From: Sphingomonas caseinilytica
GTDB taxonomy: Bacteria > Pseudomonadota > Alphaproteobacteria > Sphingomonadales > Sphingomonadaceae
Assembly (NCBI RefSeq): GCF_023516455.1
Contig: NZ_JAMGBA010000004.1
Span: forward strand, 1-64,000
Reading direction: 5' to 3'
DNA length: 64,000 nt
Part shown: piece after piece, positions 5,166-25,078 of the stretch
How positions within the stretch are numbered: position 1 is the stretch's first letter
How the letters are laid out: each line of letters starts with the position of its first letter
Position numbers and translations under genes: made by a program
The notes under the pieces: model-generated
Told to the model about the DNA's origin: nothing
Seen by the model: only the letters and a program-made list of their open reading frames with translations
Database searches by the model: none

Positions 5166-5241
5166 GGGGCCGTAGCTCAGCTGGGAGAGCGTCGCAATGG
5201 CATTGCGAAGGTCAGGGGTTCGATCCCCCTCGGCTCCACCA
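5166..5241 (+). tRNA. tRNA-Ala (GGC)
   Basis: A complete 76-nt cloverleaf. Acceptor stem GGGGCCG/CGGCTCC (one G-T wobble), D arm GCTC/GAGC, anticodon stem TCGCA/TGCGA with 7-nt loop ATGGCAT giving anticodon GGC (5199-5201), T arm AGGGG-TTCGATC-CCCCT, discriminator A and encoded CCA. It sits 71 bp downstream of the FYDLN-acid gene. Confidence 0.97.
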
Positions 5242-5328: not shown

Positions 5329-7053
5329 TCAGCCTGCCTTGCGGCAAGCTCCTCCGTCCGGCCAGCCGGTCCAACCCGCTCCCTTGACGAAACGGCCGGG
5401 CTTGGCGCCGGTCGGTGTGCCGTCTTTCAGGACCTGCACACCGTTGACGAACACGTCGCGGACACCAGTCGCATACTGCCTCGGCTTTTCGAAGGTCGAA
5501 TGGTCGCTGATCGTCTTCGGATCGAACAGCACGACGTCGGCGACCAGTCCGGGCTTCAACTGGCCGCGGTCGCGCAGGCCGAGATTGCCTGCGGGCAATG
5601 AAGTCAGGCGGCGAATGGCGTCCTGCAGCGGCACGACCTTTTCGTCGCGGACATATTTGCCGAGGAAGCGGGCGAAATTGCCATAAGCGCGTGGGTGGGT
5701 GCTGCTCTTCAGGAATACGCCCTCCGGCGCCGATGCCTCGGCATCCGATCCGAAGCTGACCCAGGGGATCGCGGCCTGACGGCGCACATTGTCCTCGTTC
5801 ATCAGGAAGTAGATCGCACCCGACCGGCCCTTGTCCGCAAGCACCAGGTCGATGACGGCTTGCTCGGCGCTGACGCCGCGTTCCTTCGCGACCTGGGCGA
5901 CCGTCTTGCCCATCAGGGGCTTCAGCGACGGTTCCGTCATGCTGGCGATAAGGACGCCGTCCGGACCCGCGTGATTATAGAGGTTTTCCCAGTTGCTGCC
6001 GGGCTTCACCATTTCCTGCTTGATGCGCTCGACCGTTGCCGGGTCCCTCAGCCGCTTCAGCATGGCTTCGGTACCGCCGTCCTGCACCCAGGGCGGCATG
6101 GAAGCGGCAAGGCCGGTGCCGCCGGCCGTGTAGGTGTACATGTCGGCGCTGATCTTGAGGCCCTGGGCACGCGCGGCCTCGACCTTGGCGATCGCCGCGT
6201 CGATCTTGTCCCAGTTGGCGCGGCCCACCTGCTTCAGGTGGTAGATCTCCGCAGGCGCTCCCGAACGCCGCGAGATCTCGATCAGCTCGTCGATGCTCTC
6301 AAGGAGGCGGTCGCCTTCCGATCGCATGTGGCTGATGTAGCTTCCGCCGCATTGCGCGGCTTCGGTGGTCAGCGCGACCAGCTCATCCGTCTCGGCAAAG
6401 GCGGCGGGCGGGTAGATGAGCGATGTGCCGACGCCTAGTGCGCCCTCTTCCATCGCCTGGCGGACCAGAGCCCGCATCCGCGTCAGCTGCTCCGGCGTCG
6501 GATCGACGTCGGCATCGCCCAGCTCATGCTGGCGGACGGTTGTGGCCCCGACATAGGAGGCGACGTTCATCGACGTCCCGCGCTTCTCGACCAGGCTCAG
6601 ATATTCGCCAAGCGTCGTCCACTCGATCGGAAACTTGAAGTCGCCCTGCTGGTCGACCGCTTCCTTCTTCATCCGGTCGTTGAGCGGGCCCATCGACCAG
6701 CCCTCGCCCATCACTTCTAACGTGACGCCCTGGCGAAGGTCGCTCTGCCCAAGTCCATCGACGAGCAGGGATTCCGTCGCCCAGCTGAGCATGTTGATGA
6801 AGCCTGGCGCGACGGCGAGGCCCTTGGCGTCGACGGTATTCGTGGCCGTCGCGGCGCGAGACGGCCCCGCGTAGACGATCTTGTCGCCCTTGATGCCGAT
6901 GTCGCCGGCATAGGGCTCCCCGCCGCTGCCATCATAGATGATGCCGTTGCGGATCAGCAGGTCATAGCTGGGCGTTTCCGCGCCTTGCGCCGAGCCTGTC
7001 GTTAAAAGGGCGGCTGCCAACGCGGCCGATGCAACACCTGTACGCCACGCCAT
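5329..7053 (-). CDS. N-acyl-D-amino-acid deacylase (D-aminoacylase) family amidohydrolase, exported
   Basis: 574 aa with a cleavable signal peptide (ending SAQG-AET). Amidohydrolase fold: N-terminal beta domain with IRNGIIYDGSGG, then the TIM barrel with histidines in SHMRSEG (H242) and YHLKQVG (H272), and a C-terminal GLVADVVLFDP segment returning to the beta domain. The family normally carries APGFIDxHTH at the first metal site; here residues 82-91 read APGFINMLSW, so the H-x-H pair is absent. I recall a recognisable D-aminoacylase subgroup with this variant, probably with a modified metal centre. Known family chemistry releases free D-amino acids from N-acyl-D-amino acids. Last gene of the operon starting at the TonB receptor, 26 bp after the serine hydrolase. 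Confidence 0.85.
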   Translation of the reverse strand: MAWRTGVASAALAAALLTTGSAQGAETPSYDLLIRNGIIYDGSGGEPYAGDIGIKGDKIVYAGPSRAATATNTVDAKGLAVAPGFINMLSWATESLLVDGLGQSDLRQGVTLEVMGEGWSMGPLNDRMKKEAVDQQGDFKFPIEWTTLGEYLSLVEKRGTSMNVASYVGATTVRQHELGDADVDPTPEQLTRMRALVRQAMEEGALGVGTSLIYPPAAFAETDELVALTTEAAQCGGSYISHMRSEGDRLLESIDELIEISRRSGAPAEIYHLKQVGRANWDKIDAAIAKVEAARAQGLKISADMYTYTAGGTGLAASMPPWVQDGGTEAMLKRLRDPATVERIKQEMVKPGSNWENLYNHAGPDGVLIASMTEPSLKPLMGKTVAQVAKERGVSAEQAVIDLVLADKGRSGAIYFLMNEDNVRRQAAIPWVSFGSDAEASAPEGVFLKSSTHPRAYGNFARFLGKYVRDEKVVPLQDAIRRLTSLPAGNLGLRDRGQLKPGLVADVVLFDPKTISDHSTFEKPRQYATGVRDVFVNGVQVLKDGTPTGAKPGRFVKGAGWTGWPDGGACRKAG

Positions 7054-7079
7054 GGCAGCCTCCCCTATATTTGACCGGA

Positions 7080-8657
7080 TCAGCGAGCAGCCGATGCGAC
7101 CGGAGTGAAATTCAGATCCTGATAGTCGAAGCTGAAGTCCGCCGTGGGCGAGACCGCCTTCATCGTGATCTTGTCGACCTTGCCTTCCGCGTCGAGACCG
7201 AAGGTAACATAGGCCGGCTCGATACCCTTATCCTCGAAGCGAGCGATGAAGGTGTCATACTGGTAATGTTCCAGCGGCCCGCTCATCCGCGGCGTTTCGT
7301 CGAAGTTGATGCCGAGGCCCGACTTGCCCTGCGAAACCGTGATCTTGCCGTACCAGGGGTCCTTGTACTGACCGGCATAACGGTCGAGCGATAGCGACGG
7401 CCCGATCTTGGCGGGCGTGGAAGCCTTGGCTTCCACCGCGGTCTTGGCATTGTTCAACATCGTGCTGAGCAGGGTCTTGTACTTCGCCGGCCAATCGACG
7501 AACGGCCGGCCAAGGTAATGATCAAGCAGCTCGTTGGTGAGGCCGCGACGGACCGCGCCTTCCTCGGCATTCATCGTGATCGCGAAGCCGACATTCTTTT
7601 CGGGGATCAGCACGACCATGGTGATGAAGCCGAACACGCCGCCCGAGTGGGAAATGATCTTGGCGCCGCCATATTCGGAAACTTCCCAGCCCAAGGCATA
7701 GGCGCGGAACATCGGCTTGTTGGCTTCGAAGCCCGGAGGCTGGTTGCCGATGGGCTCGATCGTCTCCGGGTTCCACATGGCCGCCGAAGATGCCTCGCTG
7801 AACAGGCGGCCGCCATTTTCCGTCTTGCCGCGCGACAGCTGGATCTTGAGCCACTTGGCGAGATCGTTCGCGCTCATCGCCAGCAGGCCCGCCGGGGTCG
7901 ATGCGGCGCCCAGCTGATCGGTTTCGTCGAGCAGCTGCTGCGGCGCCAGGCCGCGGACCGGACCGCCGATACGGCCGTGCGGATAAGCGCGATTGACGGT
8001 GCCGAGACGGCTTGGCTCGTCGCTGGTCGCGGTCAGCAGGCCGGCCGGCTTGTAGACATTATCGCGGAGATAGCTTTCGTAGGTCTGGCCGCTGACGGCT
8101 TCAATGAGGGCGCCTGCGACTGTGTAAAGGATGTTGTCGTAGGCGTAGCCGCTGCGGAAGCTGGTGGCCGGCTTGATGTGCTTCAGGCCTTCCAGCATCT
8201 GCGCGCGGGTGCGCTTGCTGCGCGGGACGAACATCAGGTCGCCCGCACCGAGGCCGAGGCCGCTGCGATGCGTAAGCAGGTCGCGCACTGTCATCTCGCG
8301 GGTGACCCAGCTGTCATACATCTGGAAGCCAGGCAGGCGGTCGACGATCTTGTCGTTCCAACCCAGCTTTCCGGCATCCACCAGCGTTGCGAGGGCCGCA
8401 ACCGTCACGGCCTTGCCGGTCGATCCGGTCATGAAGATGGTGTCGGCATCGACCGGAACGTTGGTACCGATCTTGCGAACGCCATAACCCTTGGCCAGCA
8501 CCGTTTCGCCATTCTCGACGATGGCGATCGCCATGCCCGGCGTTTCCGAAGCCACGCGAAGCGATTCCACGCGCTGGTCGAAATTGGCGGGCGGCGCCGC
8601 GAGCGACGGGCAAGATGCAGCGAGCGCGATCAGCGCGACCGAATGGCGAAGTTTCAT
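7080..8657 (-). CDS. Periplasmic serine hydrolase, beta-lactamase/D-Ala-D-Ala peptidase (AmpC/S12) family
   Basis: 525 aa from the ATG at 8657, with GGAGG five bases upstream. Its ATG overlaps the stop of the upstream transporter as ATGA, so the two are translationally coupled. Signal peptide MKLRHSVALIALAASCPSLA. Catalytic S79-T-G-K82 is followed by the Y-D-N triad in GYAYDNILY and an HSGG box that replaces K-T-G, as in S12/esterase relatives. A C-terminal lipocalin-like DUF3471-type domain (about 400-520) is likely. Family members act on D-amino-acid-containing peptides, esters or amides. The operon context points to peptides that contain D residues. Confidence 0.85.
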   Translation of the reverse strand: MKLRHSVALIALAASCPSLAAPPANFDQRVESLRVASETPGMAIAIVENGETVLAKGYGVRKIGTNVPVDADTIFMTGSTGKAVTVAALATLVDAGKLGWNDKIVDRLPGFQMYDSWVTREMTVRDLLTHRSGLGLGAGDLMFVPRSKRTRAQMLEGLKHIKPATSFRSGYAYDNILYTVAGALIEAVSGQTYESYLRDNVYKPAGLLTATSDEPSRLGTVNRAYPHGRIGGPVRGLAPQQLLDETDQLGAASTPAGLLAMSANDLAKWLKIQLSRGKTENGGRLFSEASSAAMWNPETIEPIGNQPPGFEANKPMFRAYALGWEVSEYGGAKIISHSGGVFGFITMVVLIPEKNVGFAITMNAEEGAVRRGLTNELLDHYLGRPFVDWPAKYKTLLSTMLNNAKTAVEAKASTPAKIGPSLSLDRYAGQYKDPWYGKITVSQGKSGLGINFDETPRMSGPLEHYQYDTFIARFEDKGIEPAYVTFGLDAEGKVDKITMKAVSPTADFSFDYQDLNFTPVASAAR

Positions 8658-9781
8658 TGTGCCTCCACGGATGTCTTTTGGTTTTTCCACAGCCGCCAGA
8701 CGCCAAAGGTCATGAGCGGCAGGACGAATACGGCGAGCAGGATGTAGGCGAGCGCGCGATAGCCGGTGGCGATCAGCGCAACGAGGCCGAAGCGGTCGGC
8801 GAGGAACATGCAGAAAATGAGCAGCGCCAACGCGATGACAAGACGCGCGCGATGGCTGAGCTCGCTGCCGCGCCGGATGCGCACGGCCTTGGCGATGCGT
8901 TCGTTGATCGCATGGACCGAGCTGGCGCCGCTTTCGAGCAGGGCCGAGAAGATCATCAGCTGGAAGAGCAGATGGAACAGCGGCATTTCCAGCCGCTGCA
9001 GCATGAAGTCCGACGGCAAGGTCGCCGACGCAATGTCGGGCAGGAACGCGACCATGCAGATGAAGAACAGCGCGCCAGGAAGCATCGCCAATGGGCCCGA
9101 GAGCAAGCCTGCGATGACCGCGTCCCGATTGCTCGTTAGGTGCCTCATCACCGGCAGGATCACGACAGCGCCGATGAGGTTGTAGCCGGCATAGACCGTG
9201 CCGCCCGCCGCCCAGCTGCCGCCAATGCTGCCGTTCGCGAAGGCGGCCTGTATTTCATTTCCGAAACGGCTGAAGCCGAGGACGACGAACAGCGCATAGA
9301 CCGCATAGAGCAGGTAGGAGACGTAGGCGAACATGCGCTCCACGGAGGCGTTGCCGAAGGTCACGATACCGATGATCGAAAGCCCGAGTGCGATCGTGCC
9401 CCATATTTCATTTAGGCCGAAGACCGCCGTCCCGATCGCCCCCGCGGCTGCGCCGTAAACGGCCAGGATCAGGACGATGAAAAGGATGTAGGCGCCTTCG
9501 AACAGCATCCAGCCGGGGCCGAGAAGCTGCTTGAAGAAGGTCACATAATCGCGGGCGCCGAACTGGCGGGCGAAGAGGAAGGTGACGACACAGCAAAGGC
9601 TGAAGAGCATCATCGACAATGTCATTGCCGCGACGCCGCCCCATGCGCCGCTCGGCAGGAAGAATTCCGCCAGCTCTCGTCCGGTTGCGTAGCCGCCGCC
9701 GATCACCACCGCCTTGAAGGCGAAGCCGGGCAGCAGATAGCGTTGAAACCGGGACGGACCGTTTGGCTGCGATACGTCCAT
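8654..9781 (-). CDS. YkvI-like multispanning membrane transporter (APC superfamily relative)
   Basis: 375 aa from the ATG at 9781, 4 bp after the DgcN stop. About ten hydrophobic helices. The first contains GFAFKAVVIGGGYATGRELAEFF, resembling the unwound glycine-rich TM1 of APC-type amino-acid carriers and of the YkvI family. No experimentally known substrate for the family that I can name. Its place between the DgcN-like enzyme and two D-amino-acid hydrolases suggests inner-membrane uptake of an amino acid such as D-glutamate; this is inference. Confidence 0.75.
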   Translation of the reverse strand: MDVSQPNGPSRFQRYLLPGFAFKAVVIGGGYATGRELAEFFLPSGAWGGVAAMTLSMMLFSLCCVVTFLFARQFGARDYVTFFKQLLGPGWMLFEGAYILFIVLILAVYGAAAGAIGTAVFGLNEIWGTIALGLSIIGIVTFGNASVERMFAYVSYLLYAVYALFVVLGFSRFGNEIQAAFANGSIGGSWAAGGTVYAGYNLIGAVVILPVMRHLTSNRDAVIAGLLSGPLAMLPGALFFICMVAFLPDIASATLPSDFMLQRLEMPLFHLLFQLMIFSALLESGASSVHAINERIAKAVRIRRGSELSHRARLVIALALLIFCMFLADRFGLVALIATGYRALAYILLAVFVLPLMTFGVWRLWKNQKTSVEAQ

Positions 9782-9785
9782 TTGC

Positions 9786-10847
9786 TTAGCCCTGACAGCG
9801 GTCGAGTAGCTGGTCAAACGCCGGTCCGCCGCGAAGCGGATCCGCGACCGGCAGACCGAGCCGGTCGCTTTCGGCGGCGATCAGGCGCTGAGCCTGTTCG
9901 TCGGTGTAGCTCGCCGTATTGACGCTGACGCCGACGCACCGAATGGCGGGATTGGTGAGCTTGCCCAGCGCGACCGTCTGCAAAATCACTTCCTCGATCG
10001 TCGGCAGCCTGACGTCCGGATAGCCCAGCACATGGGTTCGCCCCGGTTCATGGCAAACGATGAACATGTCGGGCTGGCTGCCGTGAAGCAGGCCGAGCGA
10101 CACCGCCGCATAACCCGGATGGAACAGGCTTCCCTGCCCTTCGATGACATCGATGTGATTTTCATCGGCCGCAGGCGAGAGTGTCTCCGCGGCGCCGGCA
10201 AGGAAGTCGGATACGACCGCGTCGATCGGAATTCCGGCGCCGGCGATCATGATGCCGGTCTGGCCGGTCGCCCGGAAGGTCGCGTCCAGGCCCCGGGCCT
10301 GCAGCCCGCGTGTTACGGACAAGGCGGTATATTTCTTGCCCAAGGCGCAATCCGTACCGACGGTCAGCAACCGCTTCCCGCTGCGCTTCGCGCCCGTGCC
10401 GATCGGGATATTCGCCGGCGGTACTCGGACATCGACAAGCCTCCGTCCATGAGCCTCGGCCGCGAACGCCAGCTCCGGGATGTCGGAAAGCCTCGAATGC
10501 ATTCCCGAGACAATGTCGAGGCCGGATCGCAGCGCGTCGAGCATTGCCGGAAGCCATTGCGGCGGAATTACCCCGCCGGGGCTGGCAACGCCGATCAGCA
10601 GCGCGCGCGCGCCCTTGGCATGGGCCTCTTCGGAACTGAGCCGTTCCAGCCCGGTCGATACTGTACCACCGGGCAGGACGAGCTCGCCGATGCACCGTTC
10701 GGGCGCCCAATCGCGGAGCCCGAACGCGGTCTTGGCATAGCCCGGCTCGACCGTATCGCCCAGGAAGAGCAGATACGGGCCGAGTGGGCTTGCCTGGTGC
10801 GACGCGTGCACGGTCGATCGGTCTACTGAATCGGCAGTGCCACCCAT
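9786..10847 (-). CDS. dgcN: DUF1611 family protein, DgcN-like (D-glutamate N-acetyltransferase)
   Basis: 353 aa. The N-terminal Rossmann-like half contains LFLGDTVEPGYAKTAFGLRD. The C-terminal P-loop half carries TVGTDCALGKKYTAL, the glycine/lysine loop typical of DUF1611. Members named DgcN acetylate D-glutamate in a D-Glu catabolic route, with DgcA then racemising the product; a DgcA-like enolase is encoded at 14672-15682 in the same locus. ATG at 10847, 4 bp after the TonB receptor stop. Family identity is firm. The D-Glu role is transferred from the described DgcN/DgcA pair and is not shown by the sequence alone. Confidence 0.82.
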   Translation of the reverse strand: MGGTADSVDRSTVHASHQASPLGPYLLFLGDTVEPGYAKTAFGLRDWAPERCIGELVLPGGTVSTGLERLSSEEAHAKGARALLIGVASPGGVIPPQWLPAMLDALRSGLDIVSGMHSRLSDIPELAFAAEAHGRRLVDVRVPPANIPIGTGAKRSGKRLLTVGTDCALGKKYTALSVTRGLQARGLDATFRATGQTGIMIAGAGIPIDAVVSDFLAGAAETLSPAADENHIDVIEGQGSLFHPGYAAVSLGLLHGSQPDMFIVCHEPGRTHVLGYPDVRLPTIEEVILQTVALGKLTNPAIRCVGVSVNTASYTDEQAQRLIAAESDRLGLPVADPLRGGPAFDQLLDRCQG

Positions 10848-10851
10848 TGGA

Positions 10852-13281
10852 TTAGAGGCCTGCCGTCAGTGTGAGTCCGAACGTTCGCGGCTGGGTAAAT
10901 CCGACAAGGATTCCGTCGCCCGGTATGGCGTTGCCGCCAAGCTCTGCGTTGGTAAAGCTCGTTGTCGAGGTCACGCCATGCGAGTTGGTGACATTCCGGA
11001 CAAATGCTTCGAGGCTGAAGTGCCCGAACTCAGCCCCCGCTCGCAAATTGAGCGTGGCGTAGTCCGGAATCTTGTCCTGTGGAGTGAACACGAAGTTGTC
11101 GGGATCGTTCAGGTCGCCACCAGGGCCAACGAATTCGCCATTGTTGATATTACCCTTTTGCTTGCCGACGTAGCGAAGGCTGCCGCCAACAAATGCCTGG
11201 ATGTTGCTCGATAGTGCCCAGTCATAATCGGCATTGACCGAGAAGCTGAACTTCGGCGTCCAGGGAAGCTGGTCGCCGTCGAATCCGCCAGTGATCGGTG
11301 GCGTATCTTCGGTCAGTTCGGCGTCGATATAGGCACCGTTGACCGAAAGGTTGAGGCCACGAACCGGCCGCGCGCTAATCGTTCCTTCAATGCCCATGCT
11401 CCTGGCAGTGCCGCCATTGGCATTAAAGTCGTCGCCCGCCGGCGTGACGCCGATCACCTGGATATCGTTCCAGTCATTGTAGAAGGCTGCGAGATCCACC
11501 GACACATGTGAATCCAGATCGGCCTTCAGGCCGAGCTCGTAGCTGGTGAGCGTGTCAGCATCGTAATTTGGCGGAAAGCCTTCGGGCGCCCCCAACGGAA
11601 TGACGTTAGGACCGCCTGGGCGATAACCCTTGGCCACACGTGCATAGACGGCGGTCTGGTCATTGATCTCGAAGCGCGGTGAAATCGAGTAAGTGAAAAC
11701 TGTCTCGTCGGATTCGGCGCGAGGAAGCGAACAGCCCGTGTCTGGTGTCGGGCAGCCAAACTGCAACGCGGAGAAGTTTCCACCCACGTCCTGCTGGGCA
11801 GACTGCTTGTTCCTGCTCAGGCGTCCGCCAGCGGTAATGTCGAAGCGGTCCGTCGCATGCCAGGTCGCGTTGGCGAAACCTGCCAGTTCCTTGTATTTGG
11901 ACCCAAGCTCCGCGGTGAACAGCTGAGCAAGGAACGGATCGGTGAACGCATTACCGGTATTGAGATCGACAGCTTCGATCAGATTGGTGACGAGGCCATC
12001 TTCCTTCGTGTAGTAAGCGCCGGCGAGCCACTCGAACGTCTCGTTCGACGGCGAGGCCAGCCGCACTTCCTGAGTGAATTTCTTGAGGCGGAATCCTGCG
12101 TCGATCGGCACGCCGATCGGCGAGGTCGTAACTGGCGGAATGCCAAGCAGGAATGAATAGGGGCCGTAGAGCGCATTAAACAACATCCCGAACGGCAAAG
12201 TAGCATCCTGGCGCGACTTGAACTTGTTGCGCGCGAATGCCGTTGCCGACGTTAGGGTTGCGAAACCCAGATCATAGTCGATCGTCGCATTGTAGATGCG
12301 ATATTTGACCGAGGTGGACTCAGGTATGATGACGGTCTGCGTCCAGTCATCATGCAGGGGCTTGTAGGTTTCCGGTTCGACCTCGACGTCGCTTAAACCG
12401 TCCGTTTCAATTTTCTGCGCGATAGCCGTCAACCGGATCTTCAACTGATCGTTCGGTTCGAAAAGCACGGATCCACGCCCGCCCCATACGTCGCTGTCAT
12501 TGAAATTGTTGAGTTCCTTGGACGTACCCAGCGGATCCAGGATTCCCAGGTCGACAAAGACGCTGTTCGGGAATTGATTTGGTACTGCATCGATGTAACC
12601 ACCGTTCCTGCGGTAGAAACCCGATGCGCGGAACGCGGCCTTGTCGCCGAGCGGCGCGTTGAACATTGCGTTGAAATTATATCCGACATCGCCTTCATCG
12701 ACGAACTCGACGCCGGCGCGCGCTCGGGCATCGAATACTCCGAGCTTCGGCTCGTTGGTGACGAACTTGATCAGTCCGCCCAGGGAGCTCGCACCATAGA
12801 GAGTGCCTTGCGGTCCCCGCAGCACTTCGAGACGGTTGACATCGAACGTATCGAAGTCGCTAGCCAGCACGCCGCCATTGAGCAGGCCGCTGCTCGAACC
12901 GAACGGAATTTCGTCGACATACACGGCAACGGTCGAGGCGATGCCGCCAGTGTTCACGCCGCGCAATGAAATGCGCGATTGACCAGGATCGGTCTCATTC
13001 AGGCTGAGACTCGGGACGAGATTGGCATATTGTTCAAACGTCGTTGCGTTCTGACGCTCAAGGGTGTCACCGCCGACCACCGTTACCGACTGGGGAATAT
13101 CGAGGATCTTTTCCTCGCGCTTTTGCGCAGTAACAACGATGATCTGATTTTCGTTGTCCTGAGCGGCACTGGCTTCGGTGACCGCCGCTTCGGCGGCGAT
13201 CTCCTGTGCAAACGCCGACGCGTTCGCAAATAGTGCAGCAAACCCTGACGACAGCAGCAATGCAGTGCGGACGTTGACCAT
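10852..13281 (-). CDS. TonB-dependent outer-membrane receptor
   Basis: 809 aa from the ATG at 13281, preceded by GGGGAGAGAGAAT; an ATG 27 bases further up lacks this spacing. Signal peptide ending ASAFAQE. The plug domain has the TonB-box-like IIVVTAQKREEKILDIPQSV, then VDEIPFGSS and LEVLRGPQGTLYGASSLGG. A long beta-barrel ends in FGLTLTAGL with a terminal hydrophobic residue pattern. First gene of a five-gene operon, so probably the outer-membrane importer of the peptide or D-amino-acid compound degraded by the downstream enzymes. The promoter overlaps the operator-like element at 13368-13399. Confidence 0.93.
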   Translation of the reverse strand: MVNVRTALLLSSGFAALFANASAFAQEIAAEAAVTEASAAQDNENQIIVVTAQKREEKILDIPQSVTVVGGDTLERQNATTFEQYANLVPSLSLNETDPGQSRISLRGVNTGGIASTVAVYVDEIPFGSSSGLLNGGVLASDFDTFDVNRLEVLRGPQGTLYGASSLGGLIKFVTNEPKLGVFDARARAGVEFVDEGDVGYNFNAMFNAPLGDKAAFRASGFYRRNGGYIDAVPNQFPNSVFVDLGILDPLGTSKELNNFNDSDVWGGRGSVLFEPNDQLKIRLTAIAQKIETDGLSDVEVEPETYKPLHDDWTQTVIIPESTSVKYRIYNATIDYDLGFATLTSATAFARNKFKSRQDATLPFGMLFNALYGPYSFLLGIPPVTTSPIGVPIDAGFRLKKFTQEVRLASPSNETFEWLAGAYYTKEDGLVTNLIEAVDLNTGNAFTDPFLAQLFTAELGSKYKELAGFANATWHATDRFDITAGGRLSRNKQSAQQDVGGNFSALQFGCPTPDTGCSLPRAESDETVFTYSISPRFEINDQTAVYARVAKGYRPGGPNVIPLGAPEGFPPNYDADTLTSYELGLKADLDSHVSVDLAAFYNDWNDIQVIGVTPAGDDFNANGGTARSMGIEGTISARPVRGLNLSVNGAYIDAELTEDTPPITGGFDGDQLPWTPKFSFSVNADYDWALSSNIQAFVGGSLRYVGKQKGNINNGEFVGPGGDLNDPDNFVFTPQDKIPDYATLNLRAGAEFGHFSLEAFVRNVTNSHGVTSTTSFTNAELGGNAIPGDGILVGFTQPRTFGLTLTAGL

Positions 13282-13367
13282 ATTCTCTCTCCCCAAGCAC
13301 GGCGCCATTGCGGTCTAATGCCTGCTTTGCGCCCCGGCGCTTTCTCGCGCCGCATTAATCTTGATAA

Positions 13368-13399
13368 GGACACTATTGTCCTGATTGGAAAATTGTCAA
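13368..13399 (-). promoter_or_regulatory. Promoter/operator A of the TonB receptor operon
   Basis: Read on the minus strand: a perfect -35 TTGACA (13394-13399), a 16-bp spacer containing TTTTCCAATCAGGA, and a -10-like AATAGT lying inside the palindrome GGACA-N4-TGTCC (13368-13381). The same string recurs in the promoter of the second operon (17763-17795). Overlap of the palindrome with the -10 suggests repression, probably by the XRE-cupin protein at 17817. The binding partner is inferred. Confidence 0.7.
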
Positions 13400-13421
13400 T
13401 CAGATTCGGTAAGGATTCTCG

Positions 13422-14675
13422 CTATTTGGATGCTGGATCCGCCACGGTGCTGATTCCGCGCAACAGGATCGCCGCAACAGCGGCAATTGCCGCGAGGAGC
13501 AGGAAGTAGCTCGACGGCTCGAAGCTGCTCCACAATGTGCCGACGAGTCCGGCGGTCAGGCTTCCCGAGAAAATGACCAGGAACCAGGACGCCACCGTGG
13601 TCGCTCCAAGGTGCGGCGGAGCCAGCCGGGCGAACAGTCCCAGGCCGGTCGGCAGGATGAACAGCTCGCCGAAGGTCAGAACCAGGAAGAACAGCGCGAG
13701 CCAAACCCAGCCAGTCAATGCGGCACCGCTGGCGGCTGTGACGCCGGCGAGCAGCAGATAAGCCGATCCGACAATCAGCGAACCGAGTGCCATTCGGCGT
13801 ACTAGCGAACCTTGGGTCTCCTTGTGGGCGTGACGGCGCCAGTAGGCGAGCAGCGGCGGCGTCAACAGCATCACGAACAGCGGATTCAGTGACTGGAACC
13901 AGGTCATCGGGATCTGAAAGGCACCGGCAGCGCGATCGACGCCGCTGTCGGCCCACAGCGCGACCGTATTCCCAATCTGCTCATACGCGGCGCGGAACAC
14001 CGTGACCGAAAGTCCGATGCCCAGCAGGAGCAGGATGGTATGTCGATCGAAGCCCTTGCGGACGTCGTCATTGGCGGCGACCTGGCGCGGTTGTTCCTGC
14101 GGCAAATGCTTCTGGCCCGCGAGATAGATCAAAAGCCCGGCGACCATGCCGACACCAGCCGCGCCAAAGCCGTAATGCCAGCCGTAGACTTCCCCAAGCG
14201 TGCCGCAGATCAGCGGCGCCAGGAACCCGCCGATGTTGATCCCGACATAGTAGATGTTGAACGCCCAGCCGCGGCGGGGATCGTCGCGCTTGTACAAGTC
14301 GCCGACCTGGCTCGGCAGGCTCGGCAGGAACAGGCCGTTACCCAGTGCGATGGCTGCCAGCGCGAAAAAGAACAGCGCCTCGAACGCCATCATGAAATGA
14401 CCCAGCGCCATGATGCTGGCGCCGATGATCACGGCCTTGCGCTTGCCGAGATAGCGATCGGCAATGACGCCGCCGACGATCGGCGTGAAATATGCAAGTG
14501 CGGTGTAAGAGCCGTAGATGAAAGACGACTGCGCCTGCCCGATCAGCAGCTGCTTGGTCATGTAATAGACCAGCAGCGCCCTCATCCCGAAGTAGGAGAA
14601 TTGCTCCCACATATTGGTGAGGAACAGGACGGTGAGGCCGCGCGGCTGCCCGAACCAGGTCGGCTCCTGGCTCAT
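13422..14675 (-). CDS. POT/PTR2-family proton-coupled oligopeptide transporter
   Basis: 417 aa from the ATG at 14675, which overlaps the stop of the DgcA-like gene as ATGA. The longer in-frame extension overlapping dgcA is rejected. MFS topology with about 11-12 helices. POT-type features include the N-terminal WEQFSYFGMRALLVYYM (ExxER-like E...G-M-R segment) and the FNIYYVGINIGGFLAP helix, diagnostic for PTR2 proteins. It is shorter than the usual 14-helix bacterial POTs (about 480-500 aa). Expected to import di- and tripeptides across the inner membrane. Last gene of its operon. Confidence 0.88.
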   Translation of the reverse strand: MSQEPTWFGQPRGLTVLFLTNMWEQFSYFGMRALLVYYMTKQLLIGQAQSSFIYGSYTALAYFTPIVGGVIADRYLGKRKAVIIGASIMALGHFMMAFEALFFFALAAIALGNGLFLPSLPSQVGDLYKRDDPRRGWAFNIYYVGINIGGFLAPLICGTLGEVYGWHYGFGAAGVGMVAGLLIYLAGQKHLPQEQPRQVAANDDVRKGFDRHTILLLLGIGLSVTVFRAAYEQIGNTVALWADSGVDRAAGAFQIPMTWFQSLNPLFVMLLTPPLLAYWRRHAHKETQGSLVRRMALGSLIVGSAYLLLAGVTAASGAALTGWVWLALFFLVLTFGELFILPTGLGLFARLAPPHLGATTVASWFLVIFSGSLTAGLVGTLWSSFEPSSYFLLLAAIAAVAAILLRGISTVADPASK

Positions 14676-15682
14676 GCGACAGTCACCTGGCCCGAGCCCC
14701 ATACTTCCGGCCCGGCAGTGACGTTTCCGCCTTCGTAGACGACGCTTGGCTTCCGGTCCTCTGCAAGGAACGTCGGGCCGTCGAGATCGACGATGTCGCA
14801 GCCCTGCCCGAGAACGAACGCCGGGGCCATTGCGAGGCTGGATCCCACCATGTTTCCGACCATGACGCCAAGGCCTAGGCGGCGCGCCTCCTCTGCCATC
14901 AGAAGGCCTTCGGTAAGGCCGCCGCACTTGTCGAGCTTGATGTTGACGACGTCGAAGCAACCGACCGCGCCGGCCACATCGCCCAGCGAAAGCAGGCTCT
15001 CGTCCCCGGCAATCGGGATCGGCGATTTATAGCCGTACAGGTCGGATTCCTTGCCCCGCGCGAGCGGTTGCTCGAGCAGCGAAACATTCTGTTCCTGCAA
15101 TGCCTCGATGAGCCGATCCAGATCGTCGCGGACAAAGCCCTGGTTCCCGTCGACGCCAAGCCAGACATCCGGCCGGGCCGCGCGGATTGCTTCGACACGA
15201 GCGATGTCGAGATCCAGTTCGCCGGTCAGCTTGACCTTGATCGACTTGGCGCCGGCATAGCCGATCGCGCCCGCCGCCATCACCTCCGGGTCATCAGCCC
15301 CAAGGGTGAAGGTAGTCCGAAGCGGCTTGGGTTCGGACTGCCCGGCAAGCTGCCACACGGGCTTCCCGGCCCGCGCGGCTTCCAGTTCCCACAATGCGCA
15401 ATCGACTGCGTTGCGGCCGCCGCCGGGAGGCATGATCGAACGCAGCTCCTCCCGTGTCAGGCCCGCCTCGATCGCGGACCGGGCGGCACCGATCGTGTAG
15501 AGCATATGGGGGACGTCATCGTTGAGATAATAAACGCCGCCCCCCTCTCCCCTGCCCTGAAGGTCGCCATCGCGGAGGGTAACCACGACGACATCCGATC
15601 CAGTGAACACATGACCCGAGATCCGGAACGGCTGGGCCAGCCGCAACGTCTCGACAGTTACGTCCAACTCCAGCCGTGCCAT
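14672..15682 (-). CDS. dgcA: Enolase-superfamily racemase/epimerase, DgcA-like (N-acetyl-D-Glu racemase or L-Ala-D/L-Glu epimerase)
   Basis: 336 aa from the ATG at 15682, whose A is shared with the TGA of the upstream hydrolase. The complete MLE-subgroup active site is visible: K149-V-K151 on the second strand, metal ligands in GVDGNQG (D178), LLEQP (E204) and AGDES (D227), and the sixth-strand lysine box NIKLDK (K249/K252). The late DLDGPTFLAED is typical of dipeptide epimerases and DgcA. With DgcN nearby, the likely reaction is racemisation of N-acetyl-D-glutamate. With the POT transporter in the same operon, L-Ala-D-Glu epimerisation remains the main alternative. Confidence 0.85.
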   Translation of the reverse strand: MARLELDVTVETLRLAQPFRISGHVFTGSDVVVVTLRDGDLQGRGEGGGVYYLNDDVPHMLYTIGAARSAIEAGLTREELRSIMPPGGGRNAVDCALWELEAARAGKPVWQLAGQSEPKPLRTTFTLGADDPEVMAAGAIGYAGAKSIKVKLTGELDLDIARVEAIRAARPDVWLGVDGNQGFVRDDLDRLIEALQEQNVSLLEQPLARGKESDLYGYKSPIPIAGDESLLSLGDVAGAVGCFDVVNIKLDKCGGLTEGLLMAEEARRLGLGVMVGNMVGSSLAMAPAFVLGQGCDIVDLDGPTFLAEDRKPSVVYEGGNVTAGPEVWGSGQVTVA

Positions 15683-17688
15683 CAGTAGTTCGTCCCGAAG
15701 CTGATGACGTGGAACGCCAGGACGACCCACAGCAGGATTGCCGAAGCAAGCAGCATCACCACCGCCCAGGTCTTCGAGAACCAGCCACGCTTCTCAACCA
15801 AAGCCTGGCGAAGGTTCCAGCCTGAGAAGAGCACCAGTCCGACGAACGCGATCGGAGTCAGGATCTGCAGGGCGATCAGCAACGGATCAAGCGGTCCGCC
15901 AAGCAGCTCCAGGCTCGAGAAGCCGACCGAGACAAAGGTCAGCCATCCGGCGATGGTCGCCAGCACCAGCCACTGCGAACCAAGCCAGAGGCGCTGGTTG
16001 CGAAGGCGGCTGCCCTGAAGTGTCTGCGCGAGCTTGTAACGCTTCCGAGTGATTGCTCCGGCGGGCCAGGACAGGGCGCCGAGCAGCAGCAGGCCGAGCG
16101 ACACGAAGAAGGCCGGCGCAAGCCACGACGGATTCTTGTACCAGGGCACGCGGTCGAAGACCATGAACGGCGAGACGGTGTCGAAGCTCCAGCGCGTAAC
16201 CTTGCCATTCTCGACCTTGGCAGCGAGCTTTTCGCCGCTGTCGACGTCCTTCCAGACATAGGGCTCGATCTCGACCCAGCGACGCGACTTGTTGCCGGTG
16301 TTGGTGACCATCGGGGCCGACAGCTTGCCGTTCTCATCCGGTCCGATCGAGATCGGGCTGATGAGGTCAAGGATGTGCAGGAAATTGGAACGCATACCGC
16401 GGCTGTTGAAATAGGTGCCGGCGATTTCCTGGACATGCTTCTTGGCGGTCGCGTCGTCGACCTTGGTCGTAACGGGGGTGGCCGCAAAGTAGCGATTACC
16501 GAATTCGTCGAACAGACGCTCACGCAAAGCACGCGGCGCGCCTTCGCCACCGGCACTGTTGACCGACACATAGAGACCGACATTGTCGTCGACGAACAGG
16601 GTCAGGTCGGAGTGGAACAGGCTGGTATCGCCGCCATGCGCCAAACCACGATGGCCGTTGATGCCCTGCTCGTAGAAGCCAAGCGCCATGCGATTGAGGC
16701 CCGGGATCACGTCGTAGCGATACTCATGCATCAGCTTGGCGGTTTCAGGCTTCAACAGGCCCGCACCATTGTTGAGGTGCGCGATCATGAACTTGCCCAT
16801 GTCCGCGCCCGAAGCCGCCAGACTGCCCGCAGGAGCCGGGTCCACGATTTCAAACCGCTCCGCCTTCGGCGACGATGCACCGTGATAGCCCTTTGACATG
16901 AACGGCTGCAGGTTCTTCGGAAGCGGCTGGCGGAAGCTGGAATGCTGCATGCTCAGCGGCTTGAAGATGTGCTGGTCGACATAATCGTCGAACGACTGAC
17001 CCGACGTACGTTCCACGATGTAGCCGGCCAGCGCCGTCGCATAGTTGGAATAGGCTGGCGTCGTGCCGGCATCGAACGCGCGGTTCGGCAGGCTTTCCTT
17101 CACGAATTTGTCCAGCGGGAATACCGGGCTGGTGTCATCATGGATGAGGTGGCGAACGGTTTCCTCGAAGCCGGCCGTGTGAGTCATGATGTTGCGCATC
17201 GTGACCGGCTTGCCGTTGCGGGCAGGAATCTTGAAATCGAGGTAGGTGTTTACGTCCGCATCGAGATCGATCTTGCCCTGCTCGACCTGCTGCATCACCG
17301 CCGTCCAGGTGAACAGCTTCGAGATGGAACCGGGGCGGAAAAGAGTTGTGGCGGGATCAACCGGCGTGCGCTTGTCGACGTCGGAGAAGCCGAAGCCGCG
17401 CTGGGTCAGGACCTGGCCATCCTTGACGACCACGACGACCGCACCGGCGATGTCGCCGCGCGCAAGAGCATAAGGCATGTAGCCATCGAGCCATGCGTCG
17501 ACGTCCGTCTTGCTGAGCTCATGGGCACCGGCAACCGCCGGAGTGACCGGCGTCGCGCCGGGCGCGGCTGCCACCGCTACCGGCTTTGCAACCGTCGTAT
17601 CCGGTCCAAGCTTGACGGCTTGCTGTGCCACTCCAGCACCAGCGGCCACAGCCGCCAATCCAAAAACTAATCCTCGCCACTTTGCCAT
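15682..17688 (-). CDS. Serine hydrolase (beta-lactamase/S12 fold) with C-terminal membrane domain
   Basis: 668 aa; ATG at 17688 preceded by GGGAGG with 8-nt spacing. Signal peptide or anchor at the N-terminus, then an S12 domain: S121-I-S-K124, YSNYATAL (Y-x-N) and AHGGDTSLF replacing K-T-G. After about residue 530 there are four hydrophobic helices with WLAPAFFVSLGLLLLGAL as the first, anchoring the enzyme in the inner membrane with the catalytic domain in the periplasm. Related proteins are D-aminopeptidase or esterase-like enzymes of unknown substrate. First gene of the operon that continues with dgcA and POT, under operator B. Confidence 0.85.
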   Translation of the reverse strand: MAKWRGLVFGLAAVAAGAGVAQQAVKLGPDTTVAKPVAVAAAPGATPVTPAVAGAHELSKTDVDAWLDGYMPYALARGDIAGAVVVVVKDGQVLTQRGFGFSDVDKRTPVDPATTLFRPGSISKLFTWTAVMQQVEQGKIDLDADVNTYLDFKIPARNGKPVTMRNIMTHTAGFEETVRHLIHDDTSPVFPLDKFVKESLPNRAFDAGTTPAYSNYATALAGYIVERTSGQSFDDYVDQHIFKPLSMQHSSFRQPLPKNLQPFMSKGYHGASSPKAERFEIVDPAPAGSLAASGADMGKFMIAHLNNGAGLLKPETAKLMHEYRYDVIPGLNRMALGFYEQGINGHRGLAHGGDTSLFHSDLTLFVDDNVGLYVSVNSAGGEGAPRALRERLFDEFGNRYFAATPVTTKVDDATAKKHVQEIAGTYFNSRGMRSNFLHILDLISPISIGPDENGKLSAPMVTNTGNKSRRWVEIEPYVWKDVDSGEKLAAKVENGKVTRWSFDTVSPFMVFDRVPWYKNPSWLAPAFFVSLGLLLLGALSWPAGAITRKRYKLAQTLQGSRLRNQRLWLGSQWLVLATIAGWLTFVSVGFSSLELLGGPLDPLLIALQILTPIAFVGLVLFSGWNLRQALVEKRGWFSKTWAVVMLLASAILLWVVLAFHVISFGTNY

Positions 17689-17743
17689 GGCTTTACCTCC
17701 CCAAGTCGCCGGGATTGCCCCGGCATGCGCCGTTCAATAGACT

Positions 17744-17795
17744 GATGCTATTGTTCTGATTGGGATACTGTTATCCTGATTGGAAAATTCGTCAA
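17744..17795 (-). promoter_or_regulatory. Promoter/operator B in the divergent hydrolase-regulator region
   Basis: On the minus strand: -35 TTGACG (17790-17795), the same TTTTCCAATCAGGA spacer as site A, and palindrome GGATA-N4-TATCC (17763-17776) covering the -10 AACAGT. A second, weaker copy (CCAATCAGAACAATAGCATC, 17744-17763) lies exactly 20 bp away, two helical turns, giving two adjacent half-elements. The array ends 21 bp before the regulator start, so it can also control the regulator itself. Confidence 0.7.
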
Positions 17796-17816
17796 CCGGA
17801 AAGGGATTCGCGTAAC

Positions 17817-18464
17817 ATGTCCTCAACAGTTCAGACCTTGGGCGCCCTGCTCCGTGGCGTGCGCAATCGCGAGGGCTGGACCCTGAAGCAGATGAGCGAG
17901 AAGAGCGGCATTCCGGTCTCGACGCTGTCCAAGGTCGAGCATGACCGGCTGACCCTCACCTACGACAAGCTCTACCAGGTCGCGCAGCGCCTCGGCATGC
18001 GCATGTCGGAACTATTCGCCGAATCGGTCGAGGAACCGCCGGCGGCCATCACGGCCCGCCGCAGCCTCTGTGACATCGACCATGCCGTGCGGGTCGAGAC
18101 GGACAATTATGATTATTACTATCTCTGCACCGACCTTCGGCGGAAACGGATGATCCCGGTCATTTCGAAGATCCGCGCGAAGACGTCGGAGGAGTTCGGC
18201 GAGCTTGTCCACCATGCAGGTGAGGAGTTCGTTTATGTCCTGAGCGGAAAAATTACCGTCAACACGGCTTATTATGACTCGGTCACGCTCGATGTTGGTC
18301 AGTCGATCTACATCGATTCCAGTATGGGACACGCATATTTGGCCGCGGAAGGATGTGATGAGGCGGTGGTGCTCGCGGTCATGTCCAGCGCGGACGAGGA
18401 GCTGCTCGAATCGCTGATGACGATCCACGAGGGGCAGCAAGGCACGACCGCCCAGGGACTCTGA
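17817..18464 (+). CDS. XRE-family transcriptional regulator with C-terminal cupin sensor domain
   Basis: 215 aa from the ATG at 17817. Residues about 8-68 form an XRE helix-turn-helix (LGALLRGVRNREGWTLKQMS, SGIPVSTLSKVEHDRLTLTY). Residues about 115-190 form a cupin barrel with HHAGEEFVYVLSGKITV and the later GHAYLAA segment, which probably binds a small ligand. Transcribed away from the serine hydrolase operon. The duplicated operator-like elements in the shared region and before the TonB receptor are its most likely targets. The ligand may be a D-amino acid or N-acyl-glutamate; inferred from neighbours only. Confidence 0.9.
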   Translation: MSSTVQTLGALLRGVRNREGWTLKQMSEKSGIPVSTLSKVEHDRLTLTYDKLYQVAQRLGMRMSELFAESVEEPPAAITARRSLCDIDHAVRVETDNYDYYYLCTDLRRKRMIPVISKIRAKTSEEFGELVHHAGEEFVYVLSGKITVNTAYYDSVTLDVGQSIYIDSSMGHAYLAAEGCDEAVVLAVMSSADEELLESLMTIHEGQQGTTAQGL

Positions 18465-18468
18465 TCAA

Positions 18469-19515
18469 ATGATTACCGTACCCGGCTACTTCGACCGGCG
18501 GCAGCTGACGCATGAGCCCGTCCAGGAACTGCATAACGGCGGTTGGACGGCCTATGCGGAAAAATCATCGCGTGCGCAGATCATTGCGAACAGCTTTGCC
18601 GAACTAAGGCCCGCCAGGGATTTCGGGCTTGAGCCGCTGCTAAACGTTCACGATCGCGCCTATGTCGAATTTCTGCGCTCGGCTTACGAGGAATGGCGGG
18701 CGACGGGACGCGACGGCGACGCCATCGGATACACCTGGCCAGTGGTCCGGCGTCGGCGGCTCGATTTCGACCGGATCGACGCAAAGCTGGGGCTCTACAG
18801 CTACGATGCTGCAACGCCGATCGCCGAAGGCACCTGGGAAGCCAGCTACTGGAGCGCGCAGACCGCACTTTCGGCATTGTCCGTCATCCTCGATGGCGAG
18901 GCGGCTGCCAGCTTCGCTCTCTGCCGGCCGCCGGGCCACCATTCGGGACCGGATTATTGCGGGGGCTATTGCTACCTCAACAATGCGGCCATCGCCGCCG
19001 AGCAAGCTCGCCGTTCCGGTCGCCGCGTCGCGATCCTCGATATCGATTATCATCATGGAAACGGGACGCAGGACATCTTCTACAGTGATCCGGACGTCAT
19101 GTTCGTATCGATCCATGCCGACCCGGTGACCGATTATCCATTCTTCTGGGGCCACGCCGACGAGCGCGGCGCGGGGCCCGGGGAAGGCAAGACGCTCAAC
19201 CTGCCGCTTCCTCGCGGAACGGATTTCCAGGCCTATTATTCAGCGCTAGCCGAAGCGCTGGACGCGGTCCGGTCGCACGGTGCCGACCTGTTTGTCCTGT
19301 CGTTCGGCGCCGATACGTTCGAAGAAGATCCGATTTCCCATTTCCGACTTCGCCGGGACGATTACCGGGCGATCGGCGAGCGGATCGCTGCAATCGGATT
19401 GCCGGTGCTGGTCGTCATGGAGGGCGGCTATGCGGTCGACGCGCTTGGGCATAATGTCGAAGCGCTGCTATCGGGACTAGAGGACGACGCAACGCGGGTA
19501 GTTTCGGCTGTCTGA
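18469..19515 (+). CDS. HDAC / acetylpolyamine amidohydrolase-superfamily deacetylase
   Basis: 348 aa, starting 4 bp after the regulator, so co-transcribed with it. All class II HDAC-like catalytic parts are present: H157-H158 in PPGHHSG, zinc ligands D193 and H195 in LDIDYHHGNGT, D282 in SFGADTFEED, and the transition-state tyrosine Y321 in MEGGY. The family removes acetyl groups from amines such as acetylpolyamines and acetyl-lysine. In this locus an N-acetyl-amino acid, perhaps the N-acetyl-L-glutamate made by the DgcN/DgcA pair, would fit. That substrate is inference. Confidence 0.87.
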   Translation: MITVPGYFDRRQLTHEPVQELHNGGWTAYAEKSSRAQIIANSFAELRPARDFGLEPLLNVHDRAYVEFLRSAYEEWRATGRDGDAIGYTWPVVRRRRLDFDRIDAKLGLYSYDAATPIAEGTWEASYWSAQTALSALSVILDGEAAASFALCRPPGHHSGPDYCGGYCYLNNAAIAAEQARRSGRRVAILDIDYHHGNGTQDIFYSDPDVMFVSIHADPVTDYPFFWGHADERGAGPGEGKTLNLPLPRGTDFQAYYSALAEALDAVRSHGADLFVLSFGADTFEEDPISHFRLRRDDYRAIGERIAAIGLPVLVVMEGGYAVDALGHNVEALLSGLEDDATRVVSAV

Positions 19516-19702
19516 CAAGCTGCGTTCGGCACGCGCTATTCAAGCCGCTTGGAAGTAACGACACCGACGCGGCCTGCTATCGTGGCTAACATGCCATTAA
19601 GCGCGAAAATGTTTCCGCATTGGGAACCGATTGACCGCCCGCGAATTGGCTCGATGGGCGGGGTTTGTCTTCGCGCCCATCCACTGGCCATGGGGAGGGC
19701 CC

Positions 19703-25074
<5,372 letters not shown>

Positions 25075-25078
<4 letters not shown>

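Follow-up and report, generated by a model that had tools for sequence, protein, structure and literature searches.

A conserved DgcN/DgcA-type locus of Sphingomonas caseinilytica, probably the core of a regulon for the use of short D-amino-acid peptides

PMC12363236, which cites Yu et al. 2023 (ISME J), describes an irreversible pathway that racemises acidic D-amino acids and the corresponding amides, with dgcN as its key gene, and the pair DgcN/DgcA is reported from Shewanella (PMC10845958) and from a Rhodobacteraceae strain growing on D-Glu (PMC11747546). The mlr genes (PMC12474180), D-aminoacylases (PMC12017989) and epimerases (PMC5808125) are the other described systems with which we compare. 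The subject here is a locus at positions 5329-19515 of a 64,000-nucleotide stretch of Sphingomonas caseinilytica DNA (contig NZ_JAMGBA010000004.1, positions 1 to 64,000; the window), in which a DgcA-like gene of operon A and a DgcN-like gene of operon B lie beside a divergent unit of an XRE-cupin regulator and an HDAC-fold protein (Table 1). We conclude that this locus is probably the core of an inducible regulon which uses short D-amino-acid peptides by N-acetylation and racemisation of the DgcN/DgcA type, the most likely substrates being peptides with an acidic D-residue such as D-Glu. Its gene content, its conservation, a predicted operator-like motif common to its operons and the intact catalytic residues of the putative racemase lead to this conclusion. 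Open reading frames (ORFs) together with Pfam and NCBIfam profile searches of the window confirmed all ten genes where a preliminary description had placed them, in two co-oriented operons plus a regulator unit, although the extent is 14.2 kb and not twelve kilobases. The Pfam families across the locus are PF00144 (twice), PF07755/PF17396, PF02746/PF13378, PF00854, PF00593/PF07715, PF07969, PF07883 with helix-turn-helix (HTH) families, and PF00850.

To learn the motif, we used the intergenic regions between divergent XRE and S12b genes at 50 loci, of which 46 belong to the 80 related loci described below; the consensus, TTTTCCAATCAGGATCATTATGTCC, is positioned behind a TTGAC box. Two operator-like sites were found in the window, of which the one in front of operon B overlaps a promoter-like TTGACA-N16-AATAGT; promoter-like sites of this kind number 3 in the stretch, against 1.9 expected. 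The next-best match in the window has 13.8 bits and overlaps site 1 on the opposite strand. Since a Markov null model, which gave no match of at least 15 bits, was too kind in comparison with real sequence (15.5-18.4 bits), a threshold of 19 bits was adopted. At or above it, 85 loci (1.65 Mb) contain 128 sites: for 122 the adjoining gene start belongs to the set and for 3 to other genes, while 3 have no gene start beside them. A second such site precedes the gene for the TonB-dependent receptor (TBDR), an M19 dipeptidase or DgcN in 31 of the 50 training loci. Of the sites lacking a called gene start, the strongest (L049:3426-3450, 42.1 bits) possibly marks an uncalled one.

When up to two mismatches were allowed in the organism's own genome (2.78 Mb), three sites were obtained, namely 17763, 13368 and C2:169265, all of them preceding DgcN-linked operons; a reversed-pattern control gave 0 matches in 61 genomes at the same setting. 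The third site (two mismatches, 30.0 bits) is a good palindrome, with 11 of 13 positions, and lies directly before an unlinked operon, M19-DgcN2-S12-S12, whose neighbouring TBDR gene has a 20.3-bit site. At three mismatches two extra matches appear, one overlapping site 1 and the other inside an lptC-like coding region (lptC by eye). Within the genus, sites are present at the locus in all five genomes of the locus type (G000, G008, G010, G014, G015). Because the motif stands before operon A, operon B and the unlinked operon, we regard the window as holding part of a predicted multi-operon regulon, its member operons having the operator-like motif at their fronts in common. Consequently, the system is not complete within the locus, as had been supposed, since a further DgcN/M19/S12 operon elsewhere in the genome bears the same motif. 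An array of operator-like half-sites was also noticed at L084:13270-13388, before a second TonB receptor adjoining the M19-DgcN2 operon.

GTDB contigs were scanned with the window DgcN, which yielded 572 relatives; the best 80 (65-74% identity), selected by their closeness to the window protein, were kept as related loci. With a threshold of at least 80 bits, and bearing in mind that S12a and S12b cross-match and that the TBDRs are a broad family, we counted S12b in 75 of these loci, S12a in 72, DgcA in 70, XRE in 64, YkvI in 58, TBDR in 53, M19 in 46, POT in 36, an amidohydrolase relative in 23 and HDAC in 1. XRE, S12b, DgcA and DgcN are all present in 54 of the 65 loci of at least 20 kb, and the order S12b-DgcA-POT-TBDR-DgcN-YkvI-S12a, with XRE divergent, recurs. 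Judged by record titles and taxonomy, the 80 loci comprise 58 from Sphingomonadales, 2 from Caulobacter, 6 from Duganella/Massilia and 14 from relatives of Lysobacter, Luteimonas, Rudaea and Steroidobacter. The core is a genuine module that recurs in Alpha-, Beta- and Gammaproteobacteria and is carried by numerous bacteria from soil and water, and its arrangement is not due to chance. As controls, 13 loci (182 kb) around HDAC genes of relatives contained one weak S12 match and otherwise only the HDAC itself out of the gene set. The proposal of a coherent import, hydrolysis, N-acetylation and racemisation module is thereby upheld by the conserved gene set and by the motif common to both operons; in the neighbourhood search that had been suggested, the core was recovered even beyond Sphingomonadales, whereas HDAC was not recovered as part of it.

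Clustering of ORFs over the 85 loci revealed linked families beyond the window set, chiefly M19 dipeptidases. Pfam identified them as such in one representative of each of five clusters, in the own copy on C2 and in a copy from L055. Two further families recur near some DgcN loci, for example at L021:14910-16630, namely a Glu/Leu/Phe/Val-dehydrogenase, whose cluster extends over 7 loci, and an Lrp/AsnC regulator, with a cluster of 8 loci. Outside the locus type, 21 DgcN neighbourhoods, which are more distant, partly shorter, in some cases from an intermediate sister branch, and were searched with window-protein queries at 60 instead of 80 bits, contained DgcA in 16, amidohydrolase relatives in 8, S12 in 5, TBDR in 5, M19 in 2, YkvI in 2, XRE in 1 and POT in 0 cases. 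No motif site of at least 19 bits was found in these 21 neighbourhoods. With samples that differ in this way, the Fisher values given below are indicative only. In the sister species G014 (L085), the ten-gene unit is found in the same order at another chromosomal site, by a tRNA-Thr and an rfbA-like gene (by eye). Nine of the proteins are 76-88% identical between the two loci and the TBDR only 47%, so that the TBDR gene looks as if it had been exchanged. Integration as an island with a repeated tRNA end was considered and rejected, as no copy of the tRNA 3′ end was seen behind HDAC (by eye) and a tRNA occurs in only 3 of the 19 loci scanned.

Several observations weigh against the interpretation as a D-peptide regulon. 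Matches with two mismatches are also present in 3 of the 31 DgcN-less genomes of the genus and in 7 of 24 order-level genomes, and G010 and G022 have one apiece outside the locus. Such sites can therefore be chance; the third site of the own genome was counted nevertheless, in view of its position and its score of 30.0 bits. What connects the XRE-cupin protein to the motif is position only. POT and M19 are each missing from many of the 80 loci (present in 36 and 46), so that routes of uptake and cleavage vary, and the locus type is dispensable, being found in 5 of 37 genomes of the genus; a sixth genome (G022) has DgcN of another type. One of these copies (L091, G010:C1:1550500-1570400) is decayed, its DgcN having two in-frame stops and its DgcA match being split over two frames. 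Two genomes, G012 (L140) and G036 (L141), carry a DgcA relative without a DgcN match, and both relatives group with the locus-type clade. Finally, both window enzymes fall below their equivalog cut-offs, DgcN with 446.9 bits against 480 (NF041892) and DgcA with 355.8 against 400 (NF042940).

These scores are typical of the locus type, for which 435.9-461.0 bits were obtained with other DgcN (five proteins, including the own second copy at 436.7) and 349.7-380.8 bits with other DgcA (four proteins). Five pairs of directly neighbouring DgcN and DgcA genes from the genus or order were compared: L128, L131 and L099 pass both cut-offs (DgcN 496.7-527.8 bits, DgcA 433.9-457.5 bits) and L124 and L126 pass neither (DgcN 456.4 and 454.0, DgcA 382.1 and 393.3 bits). 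Both domains of the window DgcN exceed their own cut-offs (PF17396, 79.2 bits; PF07755, 245.2 bits). In maximum-likelihood trees, from which partial DgcN of fewer than 300 residues were dropped, locus-type DgcN and locus-type DgcA each form a 100/100 clade, and the sisters are in both cases L124, L126 and a gene of G059, the latter taken from different places of that genome for the two trees. Corresponding clades and sisters suggest that DgcN and DgcA diverged together. Within the genus, DgcN occurs in 6 of 37 genomes, including the decayed copy and the different type, and all 6 have DgcA, compared with a DgcA relative (>300 bits) in 2 of the 31 DgcN-less genomes (Fisher p 1.2e-5, an indicative value only; the genomes are not independent). 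The own genome has two DgcN and one DgcA.

The racemase motifs KVK, DGN, EQP, DES and NIKLDK of the window DgcA are intact in an alignment with YcjG and 4gfi; KxK with the second Lys and the D/E/D metal ligands are the catalytic motifs of racemising members of the enolase superfamily. On the other hand, 17 alignment columns separate locus-type DgcA from the others. The Arg of the 20s loop, which is Arg in 9 of 10 others and presumably serves in Glu recognition, is Gly in 26 of 26 locus-type sequences; the 50s loop is GVYYLxDD-like instead of PYxRYGE-like as in passing DgcA and YcjG; and position 181 is Q instead of E. The same comparison for DgcN gives 8 separating columns, of which one is a gap. 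In the enolase superfamily, the 20s and 50s loops set specificity. To treat these residues as family-defining is our own reading; the accessible part of PMC3605383 gives no loop residues. Since the catalytic motifs are intact and the loops changed, the chemistry of DgcA is likely kept and its specificity possibly shifted. D-Glu is thus a plausible substrate, not an established one, and the D-Glu specificity asserted in the preliminary description goes further than the profile scores and the loops, unlike those of passing pairs, allow.

The putative deacylases encoded at the two ends of the locus, the amidohydrolase and the HDAC-fold protein, are best classed as accessory. The chances appear about even that the HDAC-like gene encodes an unrelated acetylpolyamine deacetylase which stands behind the regulator by happenstance. 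Its product has acetylpolyamine amidohydrolases as nearest solved relatives (9gkz, 331 bits, and 3q9b, 298 bits, in alignments of about 300 residues) and no NCBIfam match at E<=0.001, and no motif site of its own was found for the gene in the window scan. Strong HDAC matches (>250 bits; two pieces in G026) occur in 16 of 37 genomes of the genus, 11 of which have no DgcN (Fisher p for association 0.066, again indicative only). Moreover, 12 of 14 other HDAC loci have another context, beside etfA-like and mostly nhaA- and sucC-like genes (names by eye). In the tree, however, those 12 proteins form a clade (100/99) that excludes the window and G014 proteins, which pair with each other (96/96), and since the ten-gene order occurs at two chromosomal sites (tRNA-Ala here, tRNA-Thr in G014), the gene has moved with the unit at least once. 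In L055, an M19 gene comes next after an HDAC gene (63% identical), with a DgcN at a distance of about 8 kb. A fixed module member was rejected on its single occurrence among the 80 loci, and the proposed role as closing deacetylation step is not supported either; we keep the gene as an accessory that travels with the unit in G014.

The amidohydrolase resembles solved D-aminoacylases with up to 258 bits. The metal ligands of these enzymes are HxH, Cys96, His220, His250 and Asp366. Equivalents of the last three are kept, but HxH is replaced by L-S-W and Cys96 is not conserved (GEG), so that the earlier naming as a D-aminoacylase is not borne out. None of the 19 aligned sequences has HxH, and the GEG close to the lost Cys does not vary. 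The protein is at least 55% identical in 6 of the 80 loci. As relatives lie near 8 of the 21 DgcN genes outside the locus type, a link to the DgcN pathway is likely even if the activity differs.

A strict version of the hypothesis, in which peptides from the cell wall are scavenged, DgcN and DgcA are specific for D-Glu and N-acetyl-D-Glu, and the HDAC-like protein removes the acetyl group from N-acetyl-L-Glu, seems unlikely to us. The best NCBIfam matches are indeed DgcN, as the only family, and DgcA (356 against 216 bits for the next), and HDAC lies directly behind the regulator here and in G014, while in L055 its relative and an M19 gene are near DgcN. Scores under both equivalog cut-offs, the loss of the 20s-loop Arg and the altered 50s loop argue against it, as do the affinity of HDAC to acetylpolyamine amidohydrolases, its rarity, and the absence of any peptidoglycan endopeptidase family among the ten locus genes in the Pfam scan. 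We are just as doubtful about a dipeptide epimerase, where POT would import L-Xaa-D-Yaa, the DgcA-like enzyme would epimerise it to L-L for ordinary peptidases and DgcN would take only the free D-amino acid. The POT gene adjoins and overlaps DgcA, DgcA is homologous to L-Ala-D/L-Glu epimerase (216 bits; 1jpd, 180 bits) and has a DLDGP segment as in YcjG, and the M19 and S12 families fit peptides with D-residues. DLDGP, tried as a signature of dipeptide activity, was discarded as not discriminating since it also occurs in pairs above the DgcA cut-off, and DgcA co-occurs and co-diverges with DgcN, as expected of a partner acting on the DgcN product. Improbable, finally, is that the system serves a single special natural product of D-peptide type instead of D-peptides in general, in the manner of microcystin degradation by the mlr genes: a Sphingosinicella microcystinivorans stretch with an MlrC_C gene (L121, genome of L041) does have a POT (44%), an S12 (30% over 216 amino acids) and a D-aminoacylase-like gene (32%) nearby, its order resembles, in the genes compared (those other than mlrA), mlrC-mlrA-mlrD-mlrB as given in PMC12474180, and the TBDR differs between sister loci as if the imported ligand varied, but a module in 80 loci of many genera is too wide for one exotic substrate, identities of 44% and 30% do not show descent from it, and the own genome has no MlrC_C match.

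Under the interpretation as a D-peptide regulon, substrates and flux would be as follows. The TonB receptor, judging from its family, would bring peptides into the periplasm, where exported S12 hydrolases and the M19 dipeptidase of the third operon, with its twin-arginine-like signal (by eye), would trim them; M19 dipeptidases prefer L-D dipeptides. POT would import di- and tripeptides, and the YkvI-like carrier the freed amino acid or a close derivative. In the cytosol, the DgcN-like enzyme would acetylate the D-amino acid and the DgcA-like enzyme would then racemise the N-acetyl compound, to N-acetyl-L-Glu if the substrate is D-Glu. The N-acetyl-L-amino acid may be deacetylated or enter arginine metabolism of the ArgJ type. 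ArgJ is present in the own genome, and the best 8 of 15 M20 matches include no ArgE equivalog at E<=1e-40. Any N-acetyl-L-Glu that is made could therefore pass straight into arginine metabolism. The divergent XRE-cupin protein would bind the motif and probably represses operons A and B and the unlinked M19-DgcN2-S12-S12 operon via TTTTCCAATCAGGAN(8)TCC.

For the YkvI-like protein, there was no Pfam match even at E<=1. Its AlphaFold model (mean pLDDT 86) has MhsT, BasC, ApcT, Nramp/MntH and AdiC as best Foldseek matches (E about 1e-5, TM 0.52-0.66), which assigns the modelled carrier to the LeuT fold, common to amino-acid and Nramp metal carriers; the fold leaves the substrate unspecified. Among the nearest solved structures of S12b are 2qmi (88 bits) and the alkaline D-peptidase 4y7p (75 bits). 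By eye, signal-like N-termini were recognised in S12b, S12a, the amidohydrolase and the TBDR, and none in DgcN, DgcA and HDAC.

Table 1. Genes, transcription units and predicted sites of the locus (positions in the window)
Feature	Position	Strand	Remarks
Operon A	13422..17688	-	S12b, DgcA-like, POT; ends overlap
S12 serine hydrolase S12b	15682..17688	-	PF00144; heads operon A; hydrophobic C-terminal region; signal-peptide-like N-terminus by eye
DgcA-like enolase-superfamily racemase/epimerase	14672..15682	-	NF042940, below cut-off; sole match in genome
POT/PTR2 di-/tripeptide:H+ symporter	13422..14675	-	PF00854; TIGR00924 296 bits, above cut-off 130.2; start codon chosen by us
Operon B	5329..13308	-	TBDR, DgcN-like, YkvI-like, S12 with DUF3471, amidohydrolase
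TonB-dependent receptor (TBDR)	10852..13308	-	PF00593/PF07715; heads operon B
DgcN-like DUF1611 protein, N-acetyltransferase family	9786..10847	-	NF041892, below cut-off; nearest solved 7xrj, 348.5 bits; start codon putative, 10847 or later
YkvI-like membrane carrier, predicted LeuT fold	8654..9781	-	Without Pfam match; AlphaFold model and Foldseek; start codon chosen by us
S12 serine hydrolase with DUF3471 (S12a)	7080..8657	-	PF00144; signal-peptide-like N-terminus by eye; start codon chosen by us
D-aminoacylase-like amidohydrolase, accessory	5329..7053	-	PF07969; without HxH and Cys metal ligands
Regulator unit	17817..19515	+	XRE-cupin, then HDAC-fold, 4 bp between; divergent from operon A
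XRE-cupin transcriptional regulator	17817..18464	+	PF07883 and HTH families; divergent from operon A
HDAC-fold deacetylase, acetylpolyamine-amidohydrolase-like; accessory, membership uncertain	18469..19515	+	PF00850
Operator-like site 1, TTTTCCAATCAGGATAACAGTATCC	17763..17787	-	31.0 bits (training site), 0 mismatches; behind TTGAC box, before S12b and regulator
Operator-like site 2, TTTTCCAATCAGGACAATAGTGTCC	13368..13392	-	33.4 bits (outside training set), 0 mismatches; 60 bp before TBDR of operon B
tRNA-Ala	5166..5241		Adjoins the locus

Beyond the locus, a frame of 1815 amino acids (19631-25078, plus strand) has 11 HAMP matches and GAF, HisKA/HATPase and receiver domains, and is followed by a PAS/HisKA/receiver protein (24931-27111). 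A protein of the Beta-lactamase2 family (PF13354) is encoded nearby at 2053-2925 on the minus strand.

Already known is the DgcN/DgcA pathway itself; new, as far as the comparison of sequences indicates, would be a regulon wider than had been proposed and a co-diverged sister branch of DgcN/DgcA. A bolder version, which we consider possible though somewhat less likely than its opposite, is that the pair is a co-evolved branch with a changed substrate, either some D-amino acid that is not free D-Glu or a dipeptide containing a D-amino acid, under one XRE-cupin repressor that also governs TonB receptors, hydrolases of the S12 and M19 families and a LeuT-fold carrier of a new kind. This would be a general D-peptide regulon of three proteobacterial classes, mobile as a ten-gene unit. 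Peptides with D-amino acids occur in the waste of cell walls and in organic matter that breaks down slowly, and systems leading from their uptake to metabolism are poorly described. A widespread module with a predicted operator and a small defined regulon lends itself to direct tests of which D-residue, carrier and hydrolase are involved, and a hypothesis of function is provided for the Pfam-less YkvI-like carrier. Automatic naming as DgcN/DgcA in sphingomonads and their relatives may over-state D-Glu specificity. Literature searches returned no description of the full gene combination; they did not cover the original DgcN/DgcA report, so absence from print is not shown.

The Glu residue of microcystin is D-Glu. 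With the mlr cluster, as far as the partial text of PMC12474180 shows, the locus has in common a serine hydrolase (MlrB) and a carrier of the dipeptide/tripeptide-permease type (MlrD) in sphingomonads that act on a Glu-containing peptide. It differs in that the mlr-like stretch L121 has no DgcN/DgcA match, and descent of the mlr cluster from the window locus was considered and set aside, the identities being only moderate. Compared with the D-aminoacylase/N-acyl-D-glutamate deacylase enzymes (1m7j, 3gip; PMC12017989, in its accessible part), the amidohydrolase is of the same family and keeps three ligand equivalents, whereas L-S-W and GEG take the place of HxH and Cys96, and Arg295 of BbDam, which binds the gamma-carboxylate, is not apparent by our reading. 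The acetylpolyamine amidohydrolases share their fold with the window HDAC protein, the difference being that the window gene lies behind the regulator of the module. L-Ala-D/L-Glu epimerase YcjG/YkfB and the use of murein peptides (PMC5808125, from the portion available) resemble the locus in the enolase fold, the catalytic Lys pair, the metal ligands and the peptide context, but the window DgcA reaches 215.8 bits with NF011708 (cut-off 343), its 20s/50s-loop residues differ, and the locus is without an endopeptidase family. Closest is the DgcN-DgcA D-glutamate pathway, for which the accessible texts give the same two families in co-occurrence and the same logic from D-amino acid to N-acetyl-D- and N-acetyl-L-compound. 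In the three pairs above both cut-offs the two genes are directly adjacent, whereas the window partners, below both cut-offs and in a sister clade, are separated by POT and TBDR and have S12 hydrolases, transporters and an XRE-cupin regulator around them; the genome also contains a second DgcN operon.

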